The translations under genes were made by a program, and so were the position numbers. From Hyphomicrobiales bacterium (GTDB lineage: Bacteria > Pseudomonadota > Alphaproteobacteria > Rhizobiales > Xanthobacteraceae), in NCBI GenBank assembly GCA_016201085.1, contig JACQDO010000418.1:1-14956 (forward strand): 14,956 nucleotides of DNA. Direction: 5' to 3'. The notes beneath the pieces were generated by a model. It had not been told where the DNA came from and did no database searches. It saw nothing but the letters and a program-made list of their open reading frames with translations. How positions within the stretch are numbered: the first letter of the stretch is position 1; each line of letters starts with the position of its first letter. This document shows positions 4,519-5,889 of the stretch, in pieces.

Positions 4519-5889
<1,371 letters not shown>

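Follow-up and report, generated by a model that had tools for sequence, protein, structure and literature searches.

A 207-bp in-frame gap in leuA of a Hyphomicrobiales genome: probable assembly artefact or isolated null allele

A 2-isopropylmalate synthase without 69 internal residues

The window, the whole stretch of 14,956 nucleotides analysed here, encodes a 2-isopropylmalate synthase (LeuA) that lacks 69 internal residues without loss of reading frame. Overall, an assembly artefact or an isolated null allele is the most probable source. We judge the artefact to be the best reading, at odds of about 55%: the contig would skip part of an ordinary leuA through a metagenome-type assembly error, the organism's real copy would be full length, and mapped reads would contradict the junction. 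The protein as written is very probably dead, whether the gap is an artefact or real. The relevant features are as follows.

4519..5919, minus strand: leuA (2-isopropylmalate synthase) frame, 466 aa, 69 internal residues absent
5512..5919, minus strand: N-terminal part of the leuA barrel, with the metal/DRE motif TTLRDGEQ
5500..5515, minus strand: deletion junction, where YE runs directly into (S)VPNSD and 207 bp that relatives have are missing
4519..5508, minus strand: C-terminal part of leuA, with the HCHNDLG metal motif, the SGIHQDG motif and the LeuA_dimer domain
5994..6098, minus strand: leucine-rich leader-peptide ORF (...LILGALLLLIRP*) upstream of leuA, with similar ORFs in relatives

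The leuA ORF is open throughout 4519-5919 (minus strand). Comparison with relatives places the start probably at the ATG at 5889, which would give a protein of 456 aa (P0001). Two stretches of the TIGR00973 profile (1-117 and 183-494 of its 494 positions) match, and they meet at window positions 5509-5520. One alignment of the window leuA with 19 relatives puts the gap at exactly 69 columns (207 bp), after the codons for VY and before those for (E)SVPNSD. A motif filter left ten further fetched relatives out of this alignment, and the genomes of these ten match the window leuA in two pieces in the genus-genome search described below. The initial annotation had proposed an in-frame loss of about 68 residues with intact frame and flanking motifs; apart from the count of 69 in this alignment, that description holds.

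The junction codons in the window are GAG AGC GTG. Relatives mostly carry GAG ATG on the left side and often GAG CGC GTG on the right, and GAG (3 nt) is the sole word that the two sides share. A deletion between short similar sequences, as was suggested earlier, is possible and gains little from the relatives, because their flanks have only GAG in common. One deletion in three keeps the frame by chance.

The shortened protein still resembles its family closely. It scores below the TIGR00973 cut-off (568.5 vs 598.7 bits) and above those of NF002087 (733.8 vs 729 bits) and NF002086 (630.8 vs 532 bits), each time in two stretches, and its C-terminal LeuA_dimer domain (PF08502) scores 138.7 bits. 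The DRE motif and the HxH metal ligands are present as TTLRDGEQ and HCHNDLG, and these, SGIHQDG and LeuA_dimer follow in the same order as in LeuA (TIGR00973, NF002087; structure 3rmj). Identity to the compared relatives is 81-94% for the N part and 86-96% for the C part.

Content of the missing segment

The missing segment corresponds to residues 128-196 of the full-length relative P0002 (525 aa). In the predicted model of P0002, which is of moderate confidence (mean pLDDT 63.5, pTM 0.51), it comprises the end of a helix, a strand (143-147), a helix (155-168), a second strand (172-177) and nearly all of a helix at 184-197. Together they are two of the TIM barrel's eight beta-alpha units, which leaves the window protein without a complete eight-unit barrel. 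Also absent are the SxED Glu and the DTVG Thr; E148 and T178 in P0002 numbering, they are invariant columns in all 32 aligned relatives. The loss of barrel strands and of the DTxG motif, noted earlier from the sequence, is thereby borne out.

The barrel is homologous to that of the methylthioalkylmalate synthase BjMAMS (6e1j). The window protein keeps counterparts of Arg89, Asp90, Gln93, His288, His290, His388 and Tyr399, whereas Glu227 (of CED) and Thr257 (of DTVG), with positions counted on the alignment, have none. According to PMC11532901, BjMAMS2A loses detectable activity when Glu227 or Thr257 is changed to Ala, and E227Q and T257S keep some activity. From the loss of both equivalents and of two barrel units we infer that the window protein would be inactive.

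In the structure model of the window protein (mean pLDDT 54.1, pTM 0.34), nearly the whole of 115-279 lies below pLDDT 50. This is a consistent but weak sign, because both models were built on shallow alignments (33 and 32 sequences) and some parts of the full-length P0002 model, such as 284-338, are poor as well.

The short form among relatives

Forty-three genomes of the genus were searched, and the window's own genome alone gives one piece over 1-466. Among the 42 others, 37 match in two pieces, one (G066), cut by a contig edge, matches 281-466 alone, and four have no match at 1e-60; the short form thus occurs in none of the 37 that match on both flanks. In a search of 59 relatives, none of the matches listed covers the full length in one piece. 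Two protein searches (best 120 of 7969 and best 120 of 5604) yielded 228 homologues, 227 of which retain 60 or more of the 69 residues; the sole exception is P0001 itself, with one member on one contig. Among named genome loci (the best 80 of 595 relatives), 77 likewise retain the segment, and the remaining three begin inside it, at contig ends. The pattern EPHEVYE-x-VPN-x-D had no match in a collection of 84,980 species that perhaps leaves out the window's own genome records. No in-frame deletion in the catalytic domain of an isopropylmalate synthase is described in the titles and abstract openings that a literature search returned.

By these comparisons the gap is far outside the variation of the family. 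No other sequence examined shows the loss, which argues for an assembly error or a single fresh mutation and not for a new kind of enzyme.

The rest of the leucine pathway

The host genome comprises 3.66 Mb in 526 contigs and is 88.57% complete and 2.38% contaminated; its near relatives carry the database name Pseudolabrys. Searches of the assembly with TIGR00973, NF002087 and P0002 returned one LeuA and a distant HMGL-like gene, which speaks against the earlier suggestion that leucine is made via another leuA. Since the genome is only 88.6% complete, the absence of a second leuA is unproven. Genes for the other steps are encoded elsewhere: leuC and leuD (contig C350) score above their cut-offs with family matches nearly end to end, and leuB (C238) scores above its cut-off and runs into the contig end. 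Two leuB pieces, L073 (G000:C119, 3374-3973) and L066 (G000:C238, 16066-16666), are 92.5% identical over 601 bp. Their presence in one bin may reflect mixed strains or a second gene copy.

The HMGL-like synthase gene is split over two contigs, L036 (G000:C65, 1959-2990) and L035 (G000:C525, 1-425). It was rejected as a second LeuA: its best family is LEU1_arch, where it reaches 251.4 bits and the cut-off is 484.75, and the 340 aa scored from C65, which lack the N-terminal part, fall below every cut-off shown. The gene is about 31-34% identical to the LeuA of relatives and was found at 90-93% identity in only two of ten relatives searched.

C525 and C65 share an exact overlap of 141 bp. The largest default k of MEGAHIT is 141, and the overlap fits contigs of a k=141 graph. 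In G018 and G022, the gene continues from the C525 side into the sequence of C65 from 1959 onward, and C65:1-1958 has no match beside the HMGL-like gene in the fetched stretches of these two genomes. The mid-gene join in C65, contradicted by these relatives, is a second suspect join in the assembly; a real rearrangement in a co-existing strain is the alternative.

Artefact or recent deletion

Several observations favor the artefact. The short form is confined to one contig, the remainder of the gene shows no decay, and leuC, leuD, most of leuB and the leader are all present in an assembly that contains another suspect mid-gene join. A misjoin in a de Bruijn graph requires shared words; because the flanks share only 3 nt in relatives, the artefact must assume a chimeric read or a slip in local assembly. 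Gaps of this kind are uncommon in the assembly: of 30 other long ORFs (from 89 listed) compared with NCBIfam, 14 match at E<=1e-90 and none of these is split, and the other 16 have no match at 1e-90 and are uninformative on splits. Systematic gaps were rejected as an explanation on the same count. The collapsed assembly raised in the initial annotation is the best supported of its three options, though unproven.

A real and very recent in-frame deletion in this strain or population is the main competitor and somewhat the less probable of the two. It would leave a null leuA in a leucine auxotroph, or else a mixed population with both alleles. Flanks that share only 3 nt favor it, as some read should then cross the junction, and so do the 14 unsplit genes and the coherent neighborhood: gene order around leuA agrees with relatives, and G034 is collinear over most of the window. 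Two of three residues that are rare among relatives also lie at or near the junction. Against it stand the single contig, the otherwise retained leucine genes and leader, the exclusively two-piece matches in 37 of the 42 other genus genomes, the pattern that the long form should give, and the lack of any excess of amino-acid changes.

That last point comes from two comparisons. The dN/dS between the window and five relatives is 0.085-0.152 for the C part and 0.13-0.37 for the N part, and six pairs of other genomes give 0.08-0.16 and 0.08-0.22, respectively; one N-part value, 0.37 (vs L008), is above all others. The window leuA has 14 nonsynonymous and 19 synonymous changes of its own, vs 10 and 12 in G060 (Fisher p 1.0), in a comparison whose majority rule was slightly weighted by three genomes present twice in the outgroup (L008/L045, L010/L046, L018/L048) and in which a motif filter missed four of eight added loci (L168, L053, L054, L055). 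An old pseudogene was ruled out because the rest of leuA has no excess of amino-acid changes.

Seven of the 14 window-specific nonsynonymous changes fall in residues 117-144 (window 5488-5571), within about 20 residues of the junction; I117 and L144 of this cluster are also present in other relatives. The window residues A129, S138 and Y206 are rare among 138 relatives, 98% of which have Q at the position of A129. A129 and S138 are the two at or near the junction.

Two improbable readings: a contig chimera and a functional short enzyme

A third reading holds that the contig is a chimera that joins leuA parts from two related species in the same sample. Before G060 was added, the C part was nearest P0002 (96.4%) and the N part only 90.5% identical to it, a value as low in three of 56 comparators, and the window took different places in trees built from the two parts. 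The double leuB in the bin points the same way, as do the TRAP genes on the left, whose nearest relative is G034, in contrast to most genes on the right side. With G060 included, this signal weakened: the window and G060 form a pair in the N tree and, with G018, a weakly resolved group in the C tree. Genes with G060 as nearest relative lie on either side of the junction: orf3902 on the left, and ppk2, nudix, pdxY, abcS and the N part of leuA on the right. For the leuA C part G060 ranks third (94.5% vs 94.8%). As the nearest relative differs by gene, with G034 for the TRAP genes, G028 for abcP and G065 for abcA, the region is a mosaic, but none of the switches of nearest relative falls clearly at the junction itself. 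We rejected a chimera between species as highly improbable.

That the gap marks a working 2-isopropylmalate synthase of shortened form, its barrel made of six units or completed across the dimer, is extremely improbable: the kept frame, metal ligands, His of SGIHQDG and dimer domain and the purifying selection also fit the other explanations, and against it stand the lost Glu227 and Thr257 equivalents, whose alanine mutants had no detectable activity in BjMAMS2A (PMC11532901), the absence of two whole beta-alpha units, the poor model over residues 115-279 (mean pLDDT 54.1 vs 63.5 for the full-length relative, from shallow alignments) and a form that no relative examined shares. There is hardly any chance that the short protein works with six of eight units and that residues of the dimer partner or elsewhere replace the lost Glu and Thr. 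The same losses, unmatched in any relative examined, leave unsupported the earlier idea of an unprecedented alteration of the enzyme.

A leader ORF upstream of leuA

The leader ORF MSTRQTICAIERTAGKAGAAASLILGALLLLIRP (5994-6098, minus strand) is intact in the window and followed by GC-rich sequence. A leader upstream of leuA is also found in relatives of the genus, and under a strict text rule the same type occurs at 14 of 22 relatives' loci. It is a candidate attenuator. Rfam gave no match in the window at the gathering threshold, and a literature search found no paper that combines leader peptide, leuA, attenuation and alpha-proteobacteria.

Meaning for the organism and for annotation

The case calls for caution. 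An in-frame gap leaves an open frame that still passes two curated family cut-offs (NF002087 and NF002086), and a pathway table could score leucine synthesis as complete though the written enzyme is dead. A closer reader could instead infer auxotrophy where none exists. A real deletion would count as a further recent case of an environmental bacterium losing the synthesis of an amino acid.
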